Of a stretch of 64,000 nt of DNA, positions 481-64,000 are shown piece by piece; positions within the stretch are counted from its first letter, which is position 1, and the number at the start of each line of letters is the position of its first letter. Source of the stretch: Isoetes taiwanensis (taxonomy: Eukaryota > Streptophyta > Lycopodiopsida > Isoetales > Isoetaceae); contig JAJEKV010000028.1 of NCBI GenBank assembly GCA_021234155.1, forward strand, positions 16,248,469-16,312,468, given 5' to 3'. The notes under the pieces were generated by a model. The model was not told the DNA's origin, did no database searches, and saw only the letters and a list, made by a program, of their open reading frames with translations. Both the position numbers and the translations under genes were made by a program.

Positions 481-716
481 CGCGGAGAGAAGGGCATGGA
501 ATAAGGCTACAACCTCCGGCCATGAGTTTTCTGGGCGGGAAGGATCCGGAAGGCTCAAAAATTAGGGCGGGAGGGCTTCCGTGAGTCTGCCACATAGGCC
601 GGATATTTGGCCAGGTTGGACGGCAGGGGAACACTCTCCCGGGGAACTTCCCCAACGTAGGAGACGATGTTCAAGGAGCATCGGAGCGTCATTGTCAAAG
701 CAGTACGGTCAGGACA

Positions 717-2704
717 ATGGCGGGAGAGAATATTGCGCACGGGGTCCAGGCTGAGAAATGGGATCATAGTACAGGAAGCTCTAACAATCATGCAACGACA
801 AGGATTACACAGGGAACTAGCCAAAGCCAGGGAACTGAATCAGGCAGGAATACAGGCAGGGGTCAAGAATGGCAAGGTGTTCCTACACAAAAGGACACGA
901 GAATTCGCAGGGCCGGGACAAGGACAGAAGGAGGGGATATCGGAACCAGGGAAAGCGACGGATGTGGGAAAAGAGAACATCAATCCACTGAGGATACTAA
1001 CACAAGGGCAGGAAAACAGGACATCAGGAGGGGCAGCAACAGCAATAGCTCTCGAGGTGAGCCAACACAGAGAGGGAGAATGAAACGAAAAAGGGGAAGG
1101 CGTAAACCGAGGACCCTCAGGCGGGAGCATGGGCACAACCCCGGCCGCAAGGACCAGGGGACGACCGAGAAGAATGGTGAACGAGGCAGAACAAACAGAA
1201 ACCCCGAGAGGGCAACCTCGAGGGAGGAGACGCTGAAGATATGGTACTGGAATTGCACTGGATACCCATGGGATGACGGAGAGAGGCTTGAGGGAGCACA
1301 CAGCTGTGACATAATATGCCTAGTGGAAACATGGGAACACAACATAAAGAGGCTACTGGAGGAGGAGGGCTATCAGCTATTCACCTGTTGGAAAGATAAG
1401 AATTTTAAAGTAGGAAGAGGGAGTGCAGGCCTAGCCTGCTATGTCAAGGAAAATGTAGCAAATGGTACATGTATTTTACATTCGGATGTCAATAAGAGAT
1501 ACATGGTACTTAGTATTCAATTACAAAATAAAAAAGATCTAATATTGATCATAGCGTATTACCCACCGAGTAGTGACAAACTAGAACTGTTAGAATTAGG
1601 GGAGACCATGATGAAGTGGAAGGAACAGGGACCAATGATACTAATAGGGGATCTAAATGCCAGGACAGGCCAGGAGCAAGCGCAATATACAAGCATAGAT
1701 GAAACAAATGGACAATGGATTCAAACAGCAAGATCACAAGAATGGAACAGACGAACTGGGACAAGGCAGAAATCAATGCTAGGGGGGAACTGCTGCTCGA
1801 GGTGTGCACGGCCATAGGGGCCATCATAGCCAATGGGGTACAGAGGTGGACAGGATCGGGGGAGTTCACGAGCCAGAACGCACATGGGAGAAGTATAGTA
1901 GATTACGTAATACTGAATGAGCATGCAACAGACACAGTATCAGAAATTGTGGCCCTAGAATGGCCAATTGGGAGGAGGGAAAGTCACAGGCCCATGCAGC
2001 TGACAATTACAGTGGGGGAACAACCGAAAAATGAAAAGCAGCAGAGAAAGGAGAGAGACAGGGGAAAGCTGAAAATACATTTCCAGAACAAACACGCAGA
2101 CACGTTTGCACAATCAATCAGAGAAGAAATGGGAAAATGGAAGTGGGATGAGCACAGGGCAGATGAGAATGGAGATGTGCTCAATGACATAACAGTGAAA
2201 GTGGCATTAGAAATTTTCGGGAAAAGAAGGAAGGGAAAGGAAAACAATGCCTTCAAGGCCTCAATCTGGTACGACGATGAATGCAGGGAACAGAAAAGGA
2301 AAGTCAAGGCACTCAGAGGCAAGGAAACATATCAGAATGAAAGAGCGACATATCTGAAGTTACTGAAAGCAAAGAGAAATAAGAATCTGATGCAACACCA
2401 ATGGGGACTGGCCAAGCTAATCAAAAAACAACCCCGCAAATTCTGGGGTGGATTTAAAGAAAAAAAACAAGAGAATAGGGGAAGTGAAAACACCCAAGGT
2501 AACATTGGAACAGCCGGATGGGAGAATTATCTTGAAAAATTATATAAGACAGGGGCATCTCCAGCACCAATACCTGAACTGCAGATGATGGACCGACCGT
2601 GTTTCAATGTACAGGAAGTAATGATAGCGCTGAATGGGATGGCCAATAACAAAGCCCCAGACCTATATGGATTAACTGTGGAAGTACTAAAATGTGCAAG
2701 GTAG
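717..2704 (+). pseudogene. LINE ORF, N-terminal region and endonuclease (frameshifted)
   Basis: The frame opens at ATG 717 with about 170 residues of very polar, Arg/Gly/Thr-rich sequence, then an endonuclease/exonuclease/phosphatase fold. The fold starts at LKIWYWNCTGY (about 1233) and includes the acidic LVETWE motif and the GDLNARTG motif (about 1650). The frame shifts near 1740-1770, and the rest of the endonuclease continues in the next frame (SIVDYVILNE about 1890, then a degenerate SHRPM near 1985). A linker with basic helices follows. A second shift near 2700 leads into the reverse transcriptase. In intact LINEs this domain nicks target DNA to prime reverse transcription. The two shifts mean this copy cannot make an intact protein. 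Confidence 0.85.
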
Positions 2705-4461
2705 GGAAACAAGTGACAGATATATTCAATGGTATAATACACACAGGGCTCCCGGACAGATGGGCGTACAACAGGGTCATACCCCTACACAAAGGGGGGA
2801 GTAAACAGGAACCTAGAAACTACAGGACAATAATGGTAAGCTCCATTTTCGCAAAGTGGTACGGGAAGGTCCTAGACAATAAATTAAAGCAATGGGCAGA
2901 GGCAGGGAATTTGAGAGCACAGGGGCAGGCAGGCTTCAGACCAGAACACTCAACAACAGACCATCTAGTAACCATCCGGATACTAATAGAGCATAATAGA
3001 GGCCACGGAAAGAAAGTGATATGCTGTTTTGTGGACTTCAGAAAAGCTTTTGACATGGTACCAAGGGAAAAGCTCATACAGAGGCTCATAGACATGCAGG
3101 CACCGAGAGACATGGTAGGGGCAATTGCAAGATTATACTATAATGTATATGCAAAAATAGAAGAAGAAGGAAAGGCAATAAACTGCGACACGGGAGTCAA
3201 ACAGGGATGTCCTTTATCCCCAACATTGTTTGGAATATACATAGATGCCCTATAGGATTTCATAGCAGAACAGCAAGGGGACGTGGACGCCCCTATACTT
3301 GGGGGAACCAAGGTACCTATCATGTTATATGCCGATGATTTGGGTATGATGGCCACAAAGAACAAGGGAATGCACAGGTTGCTGAAACTACTAGAGATCT
3401 TCTGTGAAAAGACAGGGCTGACAGTGAATCTTACACAAACCAAAATAGTCTTTTTTGGTAACAGGAACAACCACAAGCCGTTCAAATATCTAGGGACAGA
3501 ATTAGAAGAAGCAACAGAGTACAAATACCTAGGGTATGATACACACGGCATAGGGAAATGGGCGAAAGGGGCATATGCTAGATTCCAAGCAGCCATAGGG
3601 AGCTACTACAACATGAAAAACTTCTGCAATAGAAACAAAATAATAGACTGGGAAATCAAATGCTACCTATTCAGCGCAGTAGTCGTCACAACGCAGCTAT
3701 ATGGGGCGGAAGCTTGGGGACTGGGGCTAACAGACAAGAAATGGGAAAAACAAGAAGGTATTTTCAGACAGCTGCATAAACAGGAATTCAAACTAAGAGC
3801 AAACGCACCACTGACAACCATAGTATACGAGACAGGTCAGAAACCTATGGAAGTGAGAGCATGGGAAAGGACCATCAGATACATCATAAGAAATAATGCA
3901 GGCGGGAAGTCAGAGAAGTTAGCGAGCATCGCAATCAACGAATCAGCAAAGTCACACATCGCCACGAGCAGCGGATGGTTTAGGGATGTAGCAATATGGA
4001 CCAGAGAAATGGGGATGAATCTGAGCGAACTGATCGATGAAGGCCAATGGAATGAGGATTGGGCAAGCAAAGCTACGCGAGCATGGTTGCAAAAGCACAC
4101 ATGACCTAAAACACTCTGGCTTATGACAGTCTTCAATCCAGAGCGGATGATAGGGGCTTGATGTACCAAGATAACATGCTTGAAAAACGGAGAAGAGACA
4201 TCTTAGCAAAATTTAGGATGGGGTGCCATGATCCGAGAATTGAAAAGGGCGGTGGAGGAAAATAGAAAAAAAAGGAGACCATTATGCGGAATCTGCGGAT
4301 GTAATGGAAGTGGAGGACGAAAACCACATGCTCAATGAGTGTCCAACATACAGAGACATCAGGGAAAAGTACAGAAAAGTAAGATGGGGACAACCAGTAC
4401 ATGCCATGATGGCAAGGACAGAAACAATGAGAGATCTGGCAGATGCAATATGAGAGATCTT
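2692..4461 (+). pseudogene. LINE reverse transcriptase and C-terminal zinc motif (broken)
   Basis: Reverse transcriptase motifs appear in order: VIPLHKGG (about 2776), GFRPEHSTTDH (about 2933), CFVDFRKAFDMV (about 3024), GVKQGCPLSPTLF (about 3195), and the catalytic YADD in MLYADDLGM (about 3322). The YADD aspartates are intact. An in-frame TAG at 3253-3255 separates the palm motif from YADD, and the frame is otherwise continuous to 4104. Beyond 4104, in shifted frames, a C-x2-C...H-x4-C motif (CGICG then HMLNEC, about 4280-4340) matches the zinc motif that ends many plant and animal LINE ORF2 proteins. Confidence 0.88.
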
Positions 4462-8431: not shown

Positions 8432-8441
8432 AGATTAAATC

Positions 8442-10703
8442 ATGTCTACTAGATTTGGTGCACATTTGCTAACATCTATTGAGGTTTTTAAAGGAGAAGG
8501 CGGATTTCAGATATGGAAGCAAAGTATCAAACAGGTTCTTGAAGTTGAAAAACTGTGGCACTTAGTAGGAGAAGAAAGTGATAGAAAAACATCCATTGTG
8601 GTGAGATCCAGGAATTCTATTGCAGGGGAGACAAGTGAAGAGTCTGTTGAAGGAGGAAAAAAAGATCAGGCTGCAGATACAAGGGGAACAACTAGCTCAG
8701 AAATTGATGAAGAGTTCAAAATAATGGAAGCACAAGCAATCATAACTAGCAAGGTTGGCACTGCTATTAAGCTCAAGTTGAGAGGTATGAGCCCGAGAGA
8801 GATGTGGAAGTACTTGGTGAACCAATATGAGGTAAAATCTTCTTCCCAAATTGATGTGCTTGAGAAACAGCTAAGAAAACTTAAGTTGTTTGAGAAAGAC
8901 AATTTGACAGAATACTTGGAGAAGTTTGACTCCATAATAGCAGACTTGGAAGGAGTTGGAATTGTGCTCAATGATGAATATCAGATTTTGTCCCTGGCAA
9001 GATCAGTATCACATAATAATCAGTTGGCAAGGTATAAGGAACACGCCATACAAATGATTAGGACAGAATTTGAACAAAAGGCTGCTGTTTATGAAGAGGA
9101 TACATCTACAGAAGTGTTATACACAGGGAAACAAAAGAAAAAAACAAATCTGAACAAGGAAAGGTTGGGGCCTTGCTATAATTGCAATCAGTATGGTCAC
9201 TTGAAATCGGATTGCCCTAATGAAGAGAAAACAATTAGATGCTACAATTGTGAAGGGAAGGGACACATTGCTGTAAATTGTCCTAGTCCAAGAGGATCTT
9301 ATGGAAGGTCAAGAGGAAGAGGTAGGTCTGCAAGTTCAAGAGGAGGAGCTGGCAGAGGCAGGACTGGATTCAGAGGTAATCCATCAATAAATGTGGTCAA
9401 AGAAGGTGAGACAAATGAAGAAGAGGAAGATGATACTGCTGAGGTAAGAAAGATTGATAATATTTTGACTGTTTCAAAGAATATGCATAAAAGAGATAAC
9501 AATTTGTTGATCATAGATTCAGGAGCTGAGAAAACCGTGACATGTGATCAAGCTTTGTTGAAGGAGTGCAAGAAAAAAGATGGTGGCCATGTGCAGCTTG
9601 GAGATGGAGCATTGAAAAGAATTGAAGACACTGGCATATTGGAGATTTTTGACTTAGAAGGAAAAGCAGTTGAACTTAAAGATGTATTGCGTGTTAAAGG
9701 TCTTGTTAGGAATCTTATTTCAGTTTGCCAATTGGTGGATCTTGGATACAGAGTGTTGTTTGAGAAATTAGAATGTAAGATTTTTCTTGAAAATGAAATT
9801 AAGTTTGTTGGTAAAAGGGTTGGAAATTTGTTTGGACTCGATTGTATGCATATTCCAAGTTTAAATGTGGTTGAATATCCATCTTTGAGAACATGGCATA
9901 ACAGGATGTGCCATACAAACATGGAAAATATTAATATATTACTCAAAAAAGGGTTTATAGCAGCAAATGAAAAGGGAGACAGGAACATGTTATGTGCAGG
10001 TTGCTTACTTGGAAAGCAAACTAAATTGCCCTTCAGAAGATCATTAAAAAGAGCTAAAGGAATTTTGGATTTAATCCATACGGATTTGTGTGGCCCTATA
10101 AATGTGACAAGCATGGTTGGACACAAATACTTCATGACCTTTATAGATGATTTCAGCAGAAGAACGAAAAGTTACTGTTTAAAAACCAAAGATCAAGCAT
10201 ATGAGGCATTGAAACTCTACATTGCAGAAGTTGAACTGGAAACAGGGAGAAGAGTGAAGTGCATTCGATCTGACAGAGGAGATGAGTATCTTTCTCATGA
10301 ATTTAAGTGCTATTGTGCAAAAAGAGGCATTAAAAGGCAATTAACATGTAGATATTCTCCTCAGCAGAATGGAGTAGCTGAGAGGAAAAATAGAACATTG
10401 CTAAATGCAGTTAGATCAATGCTAAAATATTCAGGACTGCCAAACTATACTTGGAATGAAGCACTTGAAACTGCAGTGTACATTCAGAATATACTGCCAT
10501 CGGTTAGTACAGTACCAGAAATGCTATGGTCTGGAAAATTGCCTAGTTATGAGAATCTAAGAGCCTATGGATGTTTGGCATTTGCACATGTGCCTGAGCA
10601 ATTAAGAAGAAAACTTGATGACACGGCGTATATTACATACCTAGTGGGATATGACATGAATTCCAAAGCATACAGCTATATGACCCTGCCCAAAGGAAAA
10701 TAA
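8442..10703 (+). pseudogene. Copia gag-protease-integrase
   Basis: ATG 8442 opens 753 codons. The first 230 or so residues are the gag region (YLEKFDSIIADLEGVGIVL is the typical gag helix). Two CCHC zinc knuckles follow (CYNCNQYGHLKSDC and CYNCEGKGHIAVNC, about 9174-9285), then an Arg/Gly-rich tract. The aspartic protease follows with IIDSGAEKTVTC (about 9509). The integrase HHCC region includes TWHNRMCHTNMENI (about 9894), and the catalytic core has HTDLCGP, FIDDFSRR and IRSDRGDEY, with the glutamate in NGVAERKNRTL (about 10369). The frame ends early at 10701 because of a one-base shift a little upstream. The expected pol sequence continues in the next frame, so the polyprotein is interrupted between integrase and RT. 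Confidence 0.92.
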
Positions 10704-10717
10704 TTATAAGTCGAGAT

Positions 10718-11869
10718 GTGGTTTTTGATGAACATCAATTCTATAGAAAAATTCCAAGAGTAAATGAGATAGAAAAGAATAAAGGTGAGCAAAGCATAAA
10801 TGTGGAAGAAAATTCAGCAAGGTCAAACAAGAGAACAGATCAGGTTGAACAAAAGTGTGAAATGAATGACTTTGAAGATGAAGATGTTGTTAAAACAGTG
10901 GATCATAGCATAATGCAGGAAATAGTTGAAGAAGATTTGACTGCAGGGAATGAAGACTTGGCTGCAGGGATTGAGATGGAAAAGACAAGCTCACAGGTTG
11001 AACAAATTCCTGAAAAACAAAAGGGAAAAAGCAGAAGAACTGAGGCTCAGATATTAAAAGATGAAAATCAAGGCTTGATGGAGTTACATGGCAGAAACGA
11101 GTTGGGAAAAAGTAGAAGGTTACAGCACCATGAACCTGAAATGGAGAATATCTTTGACATTTTGATTCTAGAAGACTGTGACCTGCCAAAGAACTATGAT
11201 GAAGCAGTAAATGGATCACACTCTCAAGAATGGCTTAAGGCAATGCAAGAAGAAATGCATGCATTTAAAAGGACAGGTACATATGAGGTAGTTGACAAAC
11301 CAAAAGATAAAAATATCATTGGGAACAAATGGATTTTCAGAATCAAGCCTGGAGTAGATGGCAAAACAACAAAATTCAAAGCTAGGCTAGTGGCTCAAGG
11401 ATTCTCACAACAAAAGGGAAAGGACTTTGATGAAACTTTTTCTCCGTTGGTGAAAATAAATAGTTTAAGAATGTTACTTGCCATAGCAAATTCATGTGAC
11501 CTTGAAATTCATCACATGGATGTCAGCACAGCATTCTTGAATGCAAAATTGGAAGAAGAAGTTTATTTGAAACAAGCACCTGGATTTGAAGAAGAGGGAG
11601 AGAAGGTATGGAAACTGAAAAGAGCAGTGTATGGGTTAAGGCAATCTCCAAGAGAATGGTATAAGTGCATGGACAATTACTTGCAAGAACAAGGATTTCA
11701 AAAATTAAAATATGATGGAAATTTGTATAGGTTCAGAAATGGAGAAGAATGGTGCATTATAGCATTATATGTGGATGATAATATCATGGTGGCAAAGGGC
11801 ACAAAAACCTTGCTGAAATGCAAAGAGATTTTGAATAAAAGGTTTCAAATGTCTGACCTTGTGAGTTAA
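10718..11869 (+). pseudogene. Copia reverse transcriptase
   Basis: After an acidic and basic linker, the RT begins at LPKNYDEAVNGSHSQEW (about 11185). Canonical copia RT motifs follow: WIFRIKPGVDGK (about 11332), KARLVAQGFSQ, ETFSPLVKINS (about 11434), HHMDVSTAFLNA (about 11513), VYGLRQSPREWY (about 11628) and catalytic YVDDN (about 11767). Both YVDD aspartates are intact. The frame ends at a TAA at 11867, where a single missing base in what should be a Gly-Glu-Leu stretch shifts the reading. The product alone would be an RT fragment without RNase H. Confidence 0.92.
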
Positions 11870-56156: not shown

Positions 56157-57716
56157 TGTGACGTTCCAGCACAGTATACGGTCCTAGGACGTATACTGTA
56201 CTGCCTCGTCACGCCTACACGCCACCCCGACTGATGCGTACGCCGACGTGTAGCCAAGCGGGTAGCCCCTAGGGGGGCAACTTGCAAGGTGTGTGCATCT
56301 ATTAATGTGCACATTTACCAAGGTGCACATTTATCTAGGTGCACATTTTCCCATGTGGACCCTTATGCCACTTCATAAAGGCAAGTGGGCCACACCAATT
56401 ATCCCACATGCTAAAAGGGGTAATTGGAAACCCTAGCCCTAAACCCTTGTCTATTTAGGTAAGAGAAACCCTAACTTGCTATTTTCGTTCATGCCATTTT
56501 AGGGCTCTGTTTTGCTTGCTCCAGGAGTCAAAACCGCCTCCCAGACTCTGTCTGAGCGAATTAGCTCGTTAGTTTCCCCTTCTAGCTTCATCTTCTAGCA
56601 GTTCAGCACGATGGTCGAGTTCAGGGCAGGAGGAGCGAGCCAAGGATCAGGTATTTAGTCAATTTAATAGCCTAAACCGTCTTTCAGTCATTGAATCAGT
56701 AGGTTTAGCCTATTAAATTGCCCATAGCAGCCATCTAGATGCCTAGATACTAAGCTTTAACTAAAGAACCTAACTCTATGATATAGATTAGATCTAGTTC
56801 TTTAGTTCTTCTGTGATGTATATGGATGATGTATCTCTGTGAACTCATTGTATTGGGAAGGGGGGTAGAGACCCTAAGGCCTAGTAGTTGATACTCCGAG
56901 CTAGCCTCTTTAGCACACTGTAAATTCGGCCTGTGTACAAGAACCACACCTGGTTGTGGGTGAAGGGGCCAGACTGGCTCATAAGGAGGTTCGTGTTCTG
57001 ACTCTTGAACGATCCCCATGGTGTGTAAAGTCTACCGGGGATCACTGTGGACTAGGTCTAATGGCTTGCCACTGAGTGAGGGCAAGGCAGACTCGACACC
57101 CGTGGAGTGATGCGTCACTCTCCAGTGGGTTCAAGTCGAATAAGGGCAGTGGCCCTCTAGTCACCTCGAGTCAGCATGTAGATCTCTGGAGGGAGTGATC
57201 CCTACCTGCCCCATCGGAACTGGGGAGATGCAACCCAGGAATAGCCCCTTTGGCTATGCATCCGGCGGGCTACAGTCAGGTCCCAACACTTTTCAACCTA
57301 CTTTGTAAAGTGTGCACAGGAGGGGCGGATGGAGTGGACTACCCTAAGCCATGTTCTCATGCCAGCCAAATCCATTGCCATGAATTCTGTCTGCAATGAA
57401 CTCTGGAGACCCAGGCCGTCAGTCATCCCCCTTGAGTCTGAGCCTTGGGTAGGACTCCCACATGTGATGTGCTGATCTTGTCTATGCAGATATGTGGTGA
57501 GCCATCCTTCGAGATGGTCATGTGATGTTGTTGTTGTATACTGACATGTAGGCCCTGAAGGGAGACAGGGTAAAATGACCCCTTCATTCTTCCCACTGGA
57601 ACTCATCAAGATTGCAGTGACACGTGGAGGGCCCTGTATCAGTATGGAGCTGGTATGGGGGATGAACTCTTGTTCGTATACGGTGAGTGCACCGTATATG
57701 AGTAGGGGACGTCACA
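56157..57716 (+). repeat. Gypsy 5' LTR, 1560 bp
   Basis: It starts TGTGACGT and ends ACGTCACA, a short terminal inverted repeat. The end is one base before the priming site. Hairpins mark both ends: AGTATACGGTCC / GGACGTATACT (about 56174-56199) and TATACGGTG / CACCGTATA (57678-57699). A TCTATTTAGG at about 56450 is the most TATA-like sequence. The 3' LTR is outside the window, so the start cannot be checked against it. Confidence 0.75.
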
Positions 57717-57717
57717 G

Positions 57718-57730
57718 TGGTATCAGAGCT
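57718..57730 (+). promoter_or_regulatory. Primer-binding site of the gypsy element
   Basis: TGGTATCAGAGCT matches the tRNA-Met-type primer site over 12 bases, one base after the LTR end. Confidence 0.9.
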
Positions 57731-57919
57731 ATGTTCTTGGAGACCAAGAGCAAAGCACTGGCCATGTTCCCAGTAGTATTAACTTGATAGGATCCTCAAA
57801 CCTCGAAAAGTGGGAAATTTTTTTCTCATTTTTGTAGTATATGCTAAGCTAGTAAAGTTAAGCAAATTGGAACATAAAAAGACTAAAAACAGTGAGCCAA
57901 ATCTTTCTAAGGCAAGAAG

Positions 57920-57986
57920 GTCTCACACATCGCGCCAGAGCAAAAACCAAGACTCTAGGTTTTGCCCTGGGCGCAACGTGTGAGAC
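57920..57986 (+). repeat. Palindromic leader repeat, copy 1
   Basis: A 67-bp unit opening GTCTCACACATCGCGCC and closing GGGCGCAACGTGTGAGAC. The ends are complementary and the centre reads AAGACTCTAGG. It recurs three more times in the element (58134, 59858, 60058). Confidence 0.9.
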
Positions 57987-58133
57987 ATTAGGCCATAAAC
58001 ACCTTAATACTTGATGAATTTCAGAAAAGTAACATGCTAGATCGAGTTTTAAGATAAGAATTAGCTAGATTGGTATATTACACCCCTAGAAATATGCCTA
58101 GAAATCATATAATTTAGCATAAAAATCCACAAT

Positions 58134-58200
58134 GTCTCACACGTCGCGCCAGAGCAAAAACCAAGACTCTAGATCTTGCCCTGGGCGCAACGCGCGAGAC
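58134..58200 (+). repeat. Palindromic leader repeat, copy 2
   Basis: Same 67-bp unit, 214 bp after copy 1. The right end reads CGCGCGAGAC, probably the undeaminated form of CGTGTGAGAC. Confidence 0.9.
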
Positions 58201-58302
58201 CAATGGATTAGAAAAGTCTAAATTAAGCCCATGTAATAGGCTAATAAGTGTCTTGGCTCATCCAATAGAGTAACTTGAATTTTGACCTAAAAATTGCCCA
58301 AG

Positions 58303-58312
58303 CTATAAATAG
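58303..58312 (+). promoter_or_regulatory. TATA box of the H3-like ORF
   Basis: CTATAAATAG stands 103 bp before ATG 58415, in a spacing typical of plant Pol II promoters. The identical 10-mer precedes the next ORF. Confidence 0.65.
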
Positions 58313-58414: not shown

Positions 58415-59715
58415 ATGGCTAGAACCAAACAGACCGCTCGAGTTCGCCGACCTGGTGGATCGACCAGCGCCCAAGATCCGAGCCTGATACAGCGGATGCT
58501 TCAGGAGCGCCTTCTTAACAGAAAAGACCAGTCTTCATCGAGCGAGGGAACAACTTCAGATGAACACCAAAGGGAAGGATCCCAGCAGGAGGGAGCACAT
58601 GACGAGGAGATAGACCACTCAGATGCAGGTACAGAAGTGCTCGAGGATGAGGCAGCAGAGCGAGAGCGGAGAACCAAGGCTCGCGAAGAGCAGAGGCAGC
58701 TGACTCCCGAGCCGACCGAGGAGGAGCAGCTCGAGGCCTGGATTCGAGAGGAGGAGGCAAAGGAGCAAGAAGAACAGAGGGAGCCGACGCTCGAGCCAAC
58801 CGAAGAAGAAGAGCTCGCCGCGTGGATCAAGAAACAGGAAGCAAAAAAACGCCGTCGAGAGAGGAAGAGGGCAGAGAAGAAGAGGAAGATGGAGGAGCAG
58901 GAAGCCAAAGAGGCCGAGGAACTGAAGCAGAAGAACGGAAAATTCGTGGAGGCGGGCCAAAGGAAAATCAAGAAGGTTCCACGAACAAAGACCCCAACCC
59001 CAAGGTCGCCATCACCAACGGCCACCGTCCCCCCAAGCTTTACTTCGAAGACGAGGACTTCAACCCTAACATAGGAGGTGGAAGTTCTTCGAAGCCCCCA
59101 GGGGATGAGCAGGGAGCACAGGTAGATCAAGAGCAGGCGGACCCGATCGACCAAGTGCAGAAGCCCCCACCATACCCGACTTGGGATAGGAATAAACAGC
59201 CACGACCTGCCCGAGAATCTTATGTGATAGACCCTATCAAGGTCTATCAGAGGAAGCTGAGGGAGCATAACGCATACATGAGGAAGTGGGAGGCTTACAA
59301 CTCCTATTACAAAGAGAACAGGGTCAGAATTATCAAAGGCGGGCGTCCATCGAAGAAGCAGACCTTAAGGCCGCCACCAGAGAAGCCCAAGCCCCCCAAG
59401 AAGCCAGCGAAAAGGAAAGCCAACAGAAAAGAGAGCGAGAGGCGAGCACTACGAGAGATCAGGCACTTCCAGCGCAGCTTCGTTTTCCTAATCCCCCGTG
59501 CACCGTTCGCCCGATTAGTCAGAGAAGTAATACAGGAATACAACACCGGCATGAGGGTGACGGATGAAATGTTGCTGGCACTACAGGAAGCAACCGAGCA
59601 GAAGCTGGTGCAGCACTTTGAAGATTCCACAGCCTGCACCGTGCATGCCAAGCAAGTAACCTTAATGAAGAAGGATATGCACTTGGCCAGTGTAATTAAG
59701 GGAGAGCCCTATTAA
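58415..59715 (+). CDS. Histone H3-like protein encoded by a retrotransposon
   Basis: ATG 58415 begins MARTKQTARVRRPGGSTSA. The first nine residues equal the histone H3 N-terminus. About 300 residues of Glu/Lys/Arg/Pro-rich linker follow. The last 90 residues (59446-59712) start ALREIRHFQRS and align with the H3 fold without a gap to the final GE-x-x. Shared blocks are RLVRE, ALQEA, FED, HAK, VT, M-x-KD and LA; I count about 44 identities in 93. H3 C110, H113, K115 and K122 are kept, while K56 is Arg and K79 is Asn. Loop 1 has normal H3 length, unlike CENH3. Tail and core are in different frames (220 codons from 58415; core frame open from 58822), needing a -1 shift between 58822 and 59070. 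That could be a mutation, or recoding at A7 (58843-58849). Confidence 0.85.
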
Positions 59716-59857: not shown

Positions 59858-59924
59858 GTCTCACACGTCGCGCCAGAAGCAAAACCAAGACTCTAGGTCT
59901 TGACCTGGGCGCAACGTGTGAGAC
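59858..59924 (+). repeat. Palindromic leader repeat, copy 3
   Basis: Same unit as 57920, now between the H3-like ORF and the second ORF. It opens GTCTCACACGTCGCGCC and closes GGGCGCAACGTGTGAGAC. Confidence 0.9.
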
Positions 59925-60057
59925 CATATCCAAACTAGACCAAAACACCTCCAAATCGACCAAGTAAGGGGTCAATCTTACCTAACTCGATGAGTCTAGC
60001 ATGATTTGACCCTTAGATTACCCAATTTGGACAAGTTTTGACCAAGATAGGGCAGAT

Positions 60058-60124
60058 GTCTCACACGTCGCGCCAAGAGCAAAATCAAGACTCTAGGTCT
60101 TGACCTGGGCGCAACGTGCGAGAC
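60058..60124 (+). repeat. Palindromic leader repeat, copy 4
   Basis: Same unit, exactly 200 bp after copy 3. The right end is CGTGCGAGAC. Confidence 0.9.
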
Positions 60125-60316
60125 CTCCTAGCATTTTCTCAACCATGCCATGTCCAATTGACCTCTAGTTTGTTGCAATAGGTTCATTATATAATCCCAG
60201 TCATGTTCAAACCCTCAAATTAGCCTTCCAATTCCCATTTGAACCTCAACATAGCCTAGAATTGGCCAACCCCAAGAGTTTTCCAAGTCACCCAAAAATT
60301 AGGGTTTTCCCCTAGT

Positions 60317-60326
60317 CTATAAATAG
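60317..60326 (+). promoter_or_regulatory. TATA box of the second ORF
   Basis: CTATAAATAG again, 113 bp before ATG 60439. The following TTTGCTCC...AGGCGATTTTT resembles TCTGCTCC...AGGCGATTTTT after the first TATA box, so both promoter and transcript leader are duplicated. Confidence 0.65.
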
Positions 60327-60438
60327 GCTCCCATTTCTCACTTACCATTCTACAAGTTTGCTCCAGACCCTCTAGGCGATTTTTCAGCTCCCTGAGGCGC
60401 TTTTTCATCCGTTTGTTAGTCCCATCTTCCCTAGATCC

Positions 60439-61966
60439 ATGGCAACTGCTGACTTCAGGCGATGGTACAGCGCCAGTGCCCATGCAGCTGAGACCGATGT
60501 CAATACCATATTCCAACTTCCAGAAAGAAATAGATGTCCAAGCCACTCTGCACGCAACCCCAGCATATAGACAAGTTTTGGCCGAGTTCCAAGCTAGGGT
60601 AGGACAGTCCCTAGTGCAGCTCCCCCCTTGTACAGGATATTTTGTTCCCCGGCCATCCCTTCAAGCAGCCTTGGGTGATGTTCCAAACATTGCCAAATAT
60701 CTGACTAACAAGGCCCAGAGGTTGCCAGATTACATGGTCTTGACAGTCGACAGGACCAAGTATTTCTCCTACAACGCCGCCTTAGCAATCTTCCTTTCCC
60801 ACCGTGCTGAAAACCCCATGGGAAAAACCTCTATCCCTCCCATGGAGGTGGACCCCATAGCCTCCTCAGCAGCAGACCAGCTCCTTTTGCAGTACCAACA
60901 GGAGCAAGAAGGAAGAGCAGAAGACGAGGAATCGGAAGACGAGGACTACGTCGAGCTCGACCCAGCAGAAGAGCAGCAGCTAGCAGAACAGGAGTTACGC
61001 AACTTTGAACGAAACCGGCAGACCCTCAGGATCGCTCCCCCACTTGGGCTAGGTATCACAAGCCTAGCCCCCATCATCATCGACGGCGAGGAGTACCTGG
61101 TCCTCAGCGACATCCAGAACCTCCATGAATGCAGAGAGAGGGAGTACCGACTCGACGAGTTGCTACACCAACTGCGGCAACAACCAGATCTGGATGATTT
61201 CATCGTCCGGGGAGTTTCAGATTTCCCGCTTCAGGTAAGAGAAGCCGACACCTATACAGGGGAGTCGACTTCAGACATCTAAGCCTACAACAACATCAGG
61301 CAAATAATGGAAGCTCAGGACATGCCATTTGATGAGGAGTTCTATGCCATCCAAGAACGGATGGGGATCCGTGGCAAGACCACGAACATTTTGATGTCGA
61401 GCTCTTCGACACCAGCCCCCACAGAGAGAAGAGGCGGAATCGACATCAGGCGAGTTTCATCGACAATCAGGGATTACAGAGAATTCACCGAGGTGGAGAT
61501 CGATGAATATGCCGGAAGACATAGAGCTGGCGGCCGAGGGGGCGACGAATCAACAACGTCGCACAACGACAGGTCGCTGAGATACTATCTCCCCCTGCTG
61601 CTGGACGGGAGAATAGCGGTAATACACCGCAAATTCAGCCCTAGGGGCGAAGAAGGAGCGTTCATGCTCATCGCACTCTCAGGCTTTGGCATGCATGCTC
61701 GGCTGGCTTCAAACACTGACTATGCCGTCTTAGTCAAGAGAGCGATGGCACTTGACATCTTCGACTTTGCTGTGCCCTACCGACGGCAGGGAAGACTGGC
61801 AGTGACCGCGGCCTACATGCCCGACCGTAGAGTAGAAGACTTGGTGCAAGCCTTGCAGGGCGGGACGTCAACCAACATCCTCAGGAACTTGGGACACTCG
61901 GTAGGAACGACCCAAGTTAAGAAGTTTCTTGAGGATAACCCATCCTACCGGCGATTTCAAGAATAG
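60439..61966 (+). CDS. Unknown second ORF of the gypsy element, with internal TAA
   Basis: ATG 60439 (context CCATGG) reads MATADFRRWYSASAHAAETD and needs a one-base shift by about 60530 to enter the long frame (EIDVQATLHATPAYRQVLAE). That frame has an acidic middle (EDEESEDEDYVELDPAEEQQ) and stops at TAA 61280-61282. It continues in the same frame with AYNNIRQIMEAQDMPFDEEF to 61966. Later blocks are RYYLPLLLDGRIAVIHRKF, DYAVLVKRAMALDIFDFAVP and NLGHSVGTTQVKKFLEDNP. It would be about 510 residues if read through. It matches no gag, polymerase or histone family that I can recognise. Its own leader suggests separate expression. Confidence 0.6.
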
Positions 61967-62217: not shown

Positions 62218-64000
62218 ATGACTCCCGAGGAAGAAATGTCTCAGATGAGAACGGACCTTGAGCAAATAAAGACCTTCTTGGCAGCCCAAGGAGGAGTTGT
62301 TCCAGATGGCAGTGTCCAGTTGCCCGAAGCACCACCTCAGAATACGAAGAAGGACAAGAGGAAGAGCAAGAGAAGGAGGTCCCCCAGTACGGAATCCTCC
62401 GACTCAAGCTCGGATTCGGACTCCGACTCCGAAGAAGAGGAAGAGCAGGTGCAGAACCAAAGGGACGACAGACACAAGGACACGAGGACCTCAAACTATC
62501 AGAAGAAGGTAGACTCAGCATTGGGGAATGTATGGAAGGCCAGGAAGCTCGAGCAATTCTCAGGCGAGAACAGGTCAGGCATGGAAGCAGAGGCTTGGCT
62601 CGATGAGATGAGTGAGTATGGTAACGCCTATGGTATGAAGGACAAGGACAAAGGCAGGGTGGCAACAGCCAACCTTAAAGGAGCAGCACGCATTTGGTGG
62701 AAGGGTTATGCCAAGGCCCATGGCTTAAGCAGGGATGGTTGCAGGTTCAAAATGTTTGCCAAGGCTTTCAAGCGCCATTACGTCCCAAGGGAACACAAGT
62801 CCAACATGATGCAGCAGTTCTACAGGTTGCAGCAAGGAAACAAATCAGTCCAGAAATATACAGAGGAATTCATGAGACTAAGGCTTTATGTGCCGAAGTT
62901 GAGTGAAAAGCACGCAGTGGAGAGCTATATTGAAGGATTGAATGAGGAGATCCGCAAGCTTGTAAGGGCAATAAACCCTAAGACGGTATCAGACGCAGAG
63001 TCCAAGGCAATAAGCTTGCAAGGAATGGGGCCTCAGAACAGCGGACAGAGGCAGCAGTATTACCAAGATAAAGGCAAGGCAACAGGGAGTTATAGCCCTA
63101 GAGCAGCAAGTCCAGGTCCAGCTAAAGCCCCATATAGTGGCAACCATGGGAAGCAGCAGGAGAGGAAGCAGATGTCCTTCAAGGACAAGCAGGAGGGGTC
63201 AAATTACTCCAAAGCAGTGCGGTCCTTCTTGCAAGCAATGCCCAAGAAGAAGAGACAGGAGTGCATAGAGAGACAGCTTTGCTTCAGGTGCTTCCAGCCA
63301 GGCCACAGGACAGCGAACTGCCCCTTCGTCATGAGCGCAGCGCTAGCGGAGTTAGGTGGATGGGACACTCCGTCTGACGACGACGTCGAGGCAGCACGCG
63401 ACTATATTCAGGGTGAGTGTCACATTTTTGCTGCCATAGATACAGAACAAGCAGATAATCAGTATAAGGTAATTTCCACAGTAGGGAAGGCCAAGGCCAA
63501 GTCTTTCATAGTCCTGATAGACTCGGGAAGTAGCCACAACTTTGCATCCCCAAGAATGGTTGAGATGTTGAAGTTGAAACCATTGAAGTCAAAGCCGAGG
63601 CCCGTAGTCTTAGCAAGTGGAGCAGTAAGGCAAACGGGAGGCAAGAGAATAAACTTCGACATCGACTTGCCAGGAATTAATATCCAGATGGGGGCAAAAG
63701 TAATGGGTATCGGCAAGTACGACTTGATCATAGGAATGGAGTATCTTGGACTAGCAGGGGCCATCATTGATTGTGGAAAGCGGAAGGTGACCCTCACAAC
63801 GCCCGACGGCAAGATCATTGAGATCATAGGTAAAGAAGTTGTTCCCATCATGCAGTGTATGTCTAGTAAACGGCTGCTCAAGTGCATCAAGAGCGAGCAG
63901 ATAGCATATATCTTCAAGCTTGAGATCGAGGAGGCCGAATCAGAAGAAAGCAAGGAAGATAAGGTGCTCAGCAAGTTGCCCAAGCAAATAGCTAAGTTGA
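62218..64000 (+). CDS. Gypsy gag-protease polyprotein (continues past the window)
   Basis: ATG 62218 opens a frame of at least 594 codons with no stop before the edge. An acidic/Ser-rich stretch precedes the gag (capsid-like) domain: WKARKLEQFSGENRSG, AEAWLDEMSEYGNAYG, LKGAARIWWKGYAK, FKRHYVP, QKYTEEFMRLRLYVP and VESYIEGLNEEIRKLVR. These match the Retrotrans_gag pattern. A CCHC knuckle, CFRCFQPGHRTANC, starts at residue 355. The retropepsin motif IVLIDSGSSHNF has its Asp at residue 435 and a following DLIIGMEYL, the second protease block. In the parent family this polyprotein forms the virus-like particle and matures itself. Frame and motifs are intact. Confidence 0.92.
   Translation, partial: MTPEEEMSQMRTDLEQIKTFLAAQGGVVPDGSVQLPEAPPQNTKKDKRKSKRRRSPSTESSDSSSDSDSDSEEEEEQVQNQRDDRHKDTRTSNYQKKVDSALGNVWKARKLEQFSGENRSGMEAEAWLDEMSEYGNAYGMKDKDKGRVATANLKGAARIWWKGYAKAHGLSRDGCRFKMFAKAFKRHYVPREHKSNMMQQFYRLQQGNKSVQKYTEEFMRLRLYVPKLSEKHAVESYIEGLNEEIRKLVRAINPKTVSDAESKAISLQGMGPQNSGQRQQYYQDKGKATGSYSPRAASPGPAKAPYSGNHGKQQERKQMSFKDKQEGSNYSKAVRSFLQAMPKKKRQECIERQLCFRCFQPGHRTANCPFVMSAALAELGGWDTPSDDDVEAARDYIQGECHIFAAIDTEQADNQYKVISTVGKAKAKSFIVLIDSGSSHNFASPRMVEMLKLKPLKSKPRPVVLASGAVRQTGGKRINFDIDLPGINIQMGAKVMGIGKYDLIIGMEYLGLAGAIIDCGKRKVTLTTPDGKIIEIIGKEVVPIMQCMSSKRLLKCIKSEQIAYIFKLEIEEAESEESKEDKVLSKLPKQIAKL

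Follow-up and report, generated by a model that had tools for sequence, protein, structure and literature searches.

A Ty3/gypsy chromovirus clade of Isoetes taiwanensis carries a histone H3-type gene ahead of gag

The DNA analysed here, called the window throughout, is a stretch of 64,000 nucleotides from the lycophyte Isoetes taiwanensis (assembly GCA_021234155.1, contig JAJEKV010000028.1, positions 16,248,469 to 16,312,468). Its downstream part holds a Ty3/gypsy chromovirus insertion in which two additional genes precede gag. The rest of the element lies in the stretch downstream of the window (L049). The features are listed below, in window coordinates unless a locus is named.

56157..57716, plus strand: 5' LTR, starting TGTGACGT and ending ACGTCACA (ends and flanks read directly)
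57718..57729, plus strand: PBS, TGGTATCAGAGC (from sequence; motif also in L050-L054, L064, and L066)
57917-57989, ~58131-58201, ~59858-59924, and ~60056-60135, no strand assigned: four related units of ~70 bases, GTCTCACACGTCGCGCC... (repeat search)
58304..58312, plus strand: TATAAATAG, candidate internal promoter, 111 bases ahead of the histone ATG
58415..59074, plus strand: histone region, first frame, with MARTKQTAR start, charged linker, and early stop (ORF reading)
58822..59715, plus strand: histone region, second frame, with linker and H3 fold (59440-59712; Pfam, phmmer)
60318..60326, plus strand: TATAAATAG ahead of ORF2 (sequence reading)
60413..61966, plus strand: ORF2, a protein without known family, in two open pieces (60413-61282 and 61307-61966)
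62218..64000, plus strand: start of gag-pol, with Retrotrans_gag, aspartyl protease (RVP_2), and a CCHC motif (Pfam)
L049:7353-8920: 3' LTR beyond the window's end, starting TGTGACGT and ending ACGTCACA

Assignment to the Ty3/gypsy chromoviruses follows from the LTR pair, the target duplication, the PBS, the purine-rich tract, the order of gag-pol, and the chromodomain. The two LTRs share 95.8% identity (blastn, 1586 aligned columns), and the 5-bp duplication GCTCA, read directly in the flanks, stands at both ends of the element. The 3' LTR lies about 9.0 kb downstream of the gag start and is preceded by the purine-rich tract; by LTR coordinates, the element is about 16.6 kb long. We take the PBS to be of the initiator-Met-tRNA type. 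Past the window, gag-pol continues with RT, RNase H, and a chromodomain-bearing integrase end, pol being spread over several frames. Pfam domains appear in the order Retrotrans_gag, RVP_2, RVT_1, and RT_RNaseH_2, followed downstream by SH3_Tf2-1, Integrase_p58_C, and Chromo, the integrase being represented by its C-terminal end domains (SH3_Tf2-1, Integrase_p58_C) and not by its core. The zinc knuckle match of the CCHC motif (Pfam E 0.019) is below the cut-off; the chromodomain at the integrase C-terminus is over the curated cut-off both here (Pfam Chromo E 2.9e-10, L049) and in a second element type (E 2.7e-8, L067).

A preliminary description of this locus had placed a histone-like ORF within an LTR element, between the 5' LTR and gag, and that position is confirmed. 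The objection that the LTR and gag might belong to different insertions fails, and flanks derived from separate insertions are ruled out by the 3' LTR in L049 together with GCTCA at both ends. About 4.3 kb (L049:3057-7340) separate the end of pol from the 3' LTR, against about 0.5 kb in the type-B copy (L065); this stretch may represent a nested insertion or else a long non-coding tail. Elsewhere in the window, long plus-strand frames at 585-4101 resemble, by eye, a non-LTR (LINE-type) reverse transcriptase, and plus-strand frames at 8439-11866 likewise resemble a Ty1/copia element.

The histone region had been described as a single ORF that opens with the H3 tail and closes with the H3 fold. 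Both ends of this description stand. MARTKQTAR begins at 58415, and the C-terminal fold matches the Pfam Histone profile at E 8.1e-24 and solved H3 chains at a best E of 2.1e-24 (phmmer), with 53% identity to host H3.3 over the fold; the earlier objection that a significant histone-profile hit might be lacking fails accordingly. The single frame holds for other copies but not for the window copy, where the tail's reading frame ends at 59074 and a different one (58822-59715) encodes the fold. The break is read as a lesion specific to the window copy because other copies carry one uninterrupted frame, which also rules out a programmed frameshift as the usual state. A canonical full N-terminal H3 tail is absent throughout: about the first 10 residues are present in the window family (type A), and only M-A-x-T-K in a second group made up of types B and C. 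C110, H113, K115, R116, T118, D123, R69, R72, and R83 (H3 numbering) are retained in most aligned copies, with Q at position 116 in the window copy. Histone H4-interface residues are mostly retained among the aligned copies, as judged from sequence. An AlphaFold prediction of the window fold alone from a single sequence was of low confidence (pLDDT 51). Taken as a whole, the region almost certainly encodes a retroelement-borne H3 homologue.

The promoter-like leader noted earlier is also present, its promoter role being putative. TATAAATA lies at -108 to -119 from the histone ATG in all six window-family copies examined, and again 122 bases ahead of ORF2 in the window. In B/C copies, a TATA-like site occurs near -240 only, in two of four copies examined. 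The ~70-base units are imperfect palindromes where tested, with arms 75-76% complementary, and are placed in pairs, two ahead of the histone region and two ahead of ORF2. Their motif recurs in 3/5 other type-A stretches and in 0/4 B/C stretches. An enhancer, an insulator, or a protein-binding site is a possible role.

ORF2 is mostly one frame in another copy (L052:6139-7563), and relatives of part of it occur in all three element types (in a type C copy at L067:328-1700), with 25% identity between the window type and type C. No known domain over a Pfam cut-off was found for ORF2, PHROGs gave nothing below E 0.05 (weak matches only, E 0.057 and up), and sequences of solved structures gave nothing below E 0.9. 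The predicted structure of its end has a pLDDT of 33.

The histone region is not confined to one copy. In the 1,658,258,908 bases searched (1110 sequences), all 150 fold places scored out of 8794 first-look candidates, the window's own place included, had E < 1e-43. The N-part search yielded 170 matches among the 150 candidates scored out of 4084. The window-family fold was also searched for by an exact degenerate signature, which occurs at 878 genome places, and one for the second group occurs at 660, with no match to either reversed control; the window copy falls outside its own family's signature, and these totals count occurrences of the signature, not individually verified elements. A frame of 400 codons or more is present in each of twenty type A loci (L029-L048); these were picked for long frames, as were the B/C loci L058-L063, and neither set is a fair sample of intact copies. 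An H3-like start, M-x-x-TKQT, is present in 19 of the 20 (L048 starts internally), and the frames of L030 and L032 end within the fold.

Position within the element recurs as well. An LTR end and a PBS lie 0.6-0.7 kb ahead of the histone ATG in 5/5 stretches chosen by their histone (L050-L054). L050 and L052 show the full order of LTR end, PBS, histone ORF, ORF2, gag, and pol. L051 has ORF2 and pol, with no gag frame of 140 codons, and ORF2 and gag frames are absent from the stretches read of L053 and L054. For a sample blind to the histone, every eighth of the 150 listed gag matches between ranks 4 and 116 was taken, 15 in all, and one kilobase was read at the expected upstream distance. Ten of these 15 loci gave a histone-protein match at the expected place; the kilobase of L084 held ORF2 instead, and no histone match was present in the kilobase read for L076, L079, L082, and L087. 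Among the ten with a match, only L075 and L078 have a complete fold free of stops and gaps, and most of these copies are now decayed. The association of LTR, histone region, and gag is thus a recurrent one. Gag places are also dispersed, with 12 of the 150 listed spread from 3.5 to 51.8 Mb across the 53-Mb scaffold C907.

A search with canonical H3 revealed the second group. The 150 places scored of 9031 candidates divide into 15 full-length host-type places (97-99% identical) and 135 at 72-87%. Six of the latter with long frames (L058-L063) have a fold 85-88% identical to host H3, preceded in all six copies read by an N-part of about 300 residues that replaces the H3 tail. Five are of type B and one (L061) is of type C; L062 and L061 are related through the whole protein at 47% identity. 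The representative proteins are as follows.

L062:299-1537 and L061:265-1509: B/C protein with a conserved N-part, which has no Pfam match over cut-off, and an H3 fold

Scans of three of these proteins (L061-L063) found no known domain over the Pfam cut-off in the N-part. The H3 tail beyond M-A-x-T-K is missing in 6/6 B/C copies. M-A-x-T-K itself begins 20 of the 21 copies with a readable histone start, across types, and is read as a probable relic of the H3 start.

Both flanks were read for one locus each of types B and C. The type C element (L066, L067) contains an LTR end, a PBS as in the window element, the histone ORF, an ORF2 relative, gag, protease, RT, and a chromodomain (Pfam), in a stretch read up to the chromodomain and ending short of the 3' LTR. 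The type B element (L064, L065) has a PBS, ORF2 pieces, RNase H, and an integrase end 69-87% identical to those of the other two types, and its LTR pair is 95.6% alike over 1630 columns; among the frames listed, no gag frame of 130 codons was present. The window type and type C share 73% identity in RT and 75% in the integrase end, and types B and C are 87-88% alike in the RT/integrase-end comparison.

The fold is under strong purifying selection in both groups. All dN/dS ratios given here are approximate, as Nei-Gojobori estimates close to saturation. In the window family, ten copies gave 0.11 for the first 15 columns, 0.19 for the linker, and 0.079 for the fold; adding L033, L038, L039, L040, and L044, which have local frame changes or odd ends, gave 0.08, 0.20, and 0.089 for 15 copies. 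Five type B copies gave 0.19 for the N-part and 0.043 for the fold. Among gag-chosen loci, 7 of the 10 with a histone match gave a fold value of 0.090, with L077, L083, and L086 left out for gaps and stop codons skipped. Since the low value also appears in these loci, it is not a product of picking intact frames. Silent sites of the element fold are saturated against host H3, and the uptake is therefore old. Despite this saturation, the folds of the B/C copies read have kept their 85-88% identity to host H3.

The preliminary label of H3 requires a partial revision. The fold is indeed that of histone H3, but the window family appears to stand closer to CENH3 than to canonical H3. A tree built from 89 columns and 29 rows (leaving out L010, L033, L038, L039, L040, and L044; reference proteins, including CENH3, entered by hand) places it with plant CENH3 at a support of 96/92, or 97/92 once the two longest rows are dropped. 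A single clade holding all element types is not rejected by the data (p 0.11 and 0.14). Two separate uptakes are possible, as is one uptake followed by strong change. Majority residues of the window family match CENH3 and not H3 at 12 positions, H3 and not CENH3 at 5, and neither at 25; the corresponding counts for types B/C are 3, 16, and 10. CENH3 has a longer loop 1. In the window-family fold, loop 1 has the canonical H3 length, without the CENH3 insertion. A host CENH3 was not found in two genome searches with 150 candidates scored each, nor in seven small stretches read; L073 is an intron-bearing host H3 exon.

Core histones are among the most guarded of host proteins, and transposon silencing works through histone tails. 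The chromovirus clade almost certainly encodes, soon after the PBS, an H3 variant that combines an H3- or CENH3-type fold with an H3 tail start and a private N-terminal part of about 300 residues, as homology, recurrent position, lasting purifying selection, and copy number show. We propose that this protein would pair with host H4, enter host nucleosomes with the help of host chaperones, and display its own N-part instead of the host tail. Incorporation into nucleosomes is likely, given the conserved fold. The element may benefit by escaping silencing, since the residues for K9/K27 silencing marks are mostly or all missing. The explanation as a whole, in which the variant enters host nucleosomes to the element's advantage and most likely counters silencing, is moderately favoured. 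Anti-silencing as the main benefit is a narrower claim to which we give somewhat less than even chances. It draws on the B/C copies, whose lack of the tail bearing silencing marks favours such an escape. The window family keeps K4, and K9 in 14 of the 15 copies with an H3-like start (V in the window copy), a pattern that would fit a decoy or a reader target better than a simple loss of silencing sites. Such a tail could likewise act as a decoy, or as a landing mark recognised by the integrase of the element. In its broadest form, the proposal is tentative and rather doubtful: whichever of the more than 1,500 copies are intact would express H3s, of which some have a CENH3-type fold and others an entirely new N-terminal domain, and these would be built into host chromatin and give the parasite control of silencing, integration targets, or centromere identity.

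The main rival to anti-silencing is an integration tether, which we regard as unlikely, if less so than the other alternatives. The fold would anchor in nucleosomes while the N-part (in the window family, perhaps the tail) recruits the integration complex, perhaps through the integrase chromodomain, and new copies would land where old copies had marked chromatin. The chromodomain at the integrase end (E 2.9e-10 and 2.7e-8) and the long conserved private N-part, with a dN/dS of about 0.19, agree with this, and chromodomains are reported to steer integration by histone marks (PMC9289625, PMC2864245). The element's chromodomain, however, seems by eye to lack most of the aromatic cage of known chromodomain structures, the tail it would read is missing in the six B/C copies, and copies are dispersed, as the 12 listed gag places on C907 illustrate. 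That dispersal also weighs against a centromere mimic, in which the window family would use its CENH3-type fold and the corresponding loading route to favour insertion or transmission at centromeres. The grouping with plant CENH3 (96/92 and 97/92) and the 12 CENH3-type changes, against 5 of H3 type and 25 of neither, argue for it. Yet the loop-1 insertion is absent, the tree uses hand-entered CENH3 references over 89 columns and does not reject an all-element clade (p 0.11 and 0.14), and no host CENH3 appeared among the 150 candidates scored per search. We consider such mimicry improbable.

An equally improbable reading assigns the protein a structural role, packing element cDNA or genomic RNA within the particle. 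A charged linker joined to a histone fold would suit this task, and the separate encoding of Gag leaves room for an accessory nucleic-acid protein; however, the H3-specific conservation of the fold, strongest in B/C, exceeds what a mere basic protein would need. The frame change that breaks the window copy might, in turn, suggest a host H3 fragment joined to or inserted in a single element copy by chance. Many copies, a recurring position, three element types, and purifying selection leave this a negligible probability, and the earlier objection that the ORF might be peculiar to one copy fails with it. A chance match or single-copy fusion is ruled out by the 150 places at E < 1e-43, the signature counts, and the gag-chosen loci. 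Entry into host nucleosomes, with escape from silencing as the leading benefit, remains the preferred explanation.

The H3-type gene of this chromovirus clade is real, selected, and abundant, and defines a new variant of LTR retrotransposon whose histone has a putative function. If the proposal is true, a clade that has kept and diversified its own H3 for long enough to saturate silent sites would amount to a direct counter-move by the parasite, made at the nucleosome itself. The H3-fold coding sequences of this genome would then lie mostly in transposons (1,538 signature matches against at least 15 full-length host-type places), with consequences for histone annotation, H3-tail antibodies, and silencing studies in lycophytes.

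Among the matches listed from the open-licence literature, no paper on a retroelement-encoded histone was found, which is not proof of absence. The word "histone" is absent from the main text of the genome papers of I. taiwanensis (PMC8566536) and I. sinensis (PMC10541799), and "retrotransposon", "retrovir", and "retroelement" have 0 occurrences in the main text of a review of viral histones (PMC9145170). In IMG/VR, two stretches fit the window-type pattern, with none confirmed; for type B, one of four was confirmed, an H3-type stretch at L090:1054-1338 that shares 37% identity with the type-B fold and may be the histone of a DNA virus.

Comparison with known systems places the element between several partial parallels. 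Plant CENH3 shares with the window family the fold grouping, the LIP-A pattern, and R-x-T-x-E-x-L ahead of ALQEA. The family differs in its lack of a loop-1 insertion, in its MARTKQTARK start and charged linker of about 300 residues, and in being transposon-encoded. Among retrotransposons, Phalaenopsis Ty3/gypsy elements carry an ORF for an AlkB-like 2-ODD (m6A demethylase); this is an RNA-acting enzyme and not a histone, and the elements are compared there with Ogre and not with chromoviruses (PMC9289625). H3-type folds with divergent or extended tails, the feature shared with the present elements, are described for giant and other DNA viruses, namely marseillevirus, medusavirus, and xenomavirus (PMC9145170). 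A functional parallel concerns bracovirus H4 (CpBV-H4/CvBV-H4), which becomes part of host nucleosomes and, by way of its altered tail, affects gene expression (PMC5423620, PMC9145170). In both cases a parasite encodes a core histone whose N-terminal tail is altered, nucleosome entry being presumed in ours. The bracovirus protein is an H4 from a wasp polydnavirus, whereas the present one is of H3 type and belongs to a plant LTR retrotransposon, and its N-part exceeds several-fold the 38-residue segment deleted in the bracovirus study (PMC5423620). The bracovirus case is a precedent for a parasite histone that enters host nucleosomes and exerts its effect through an altered tail, as the chromovirus H3 variant may do.
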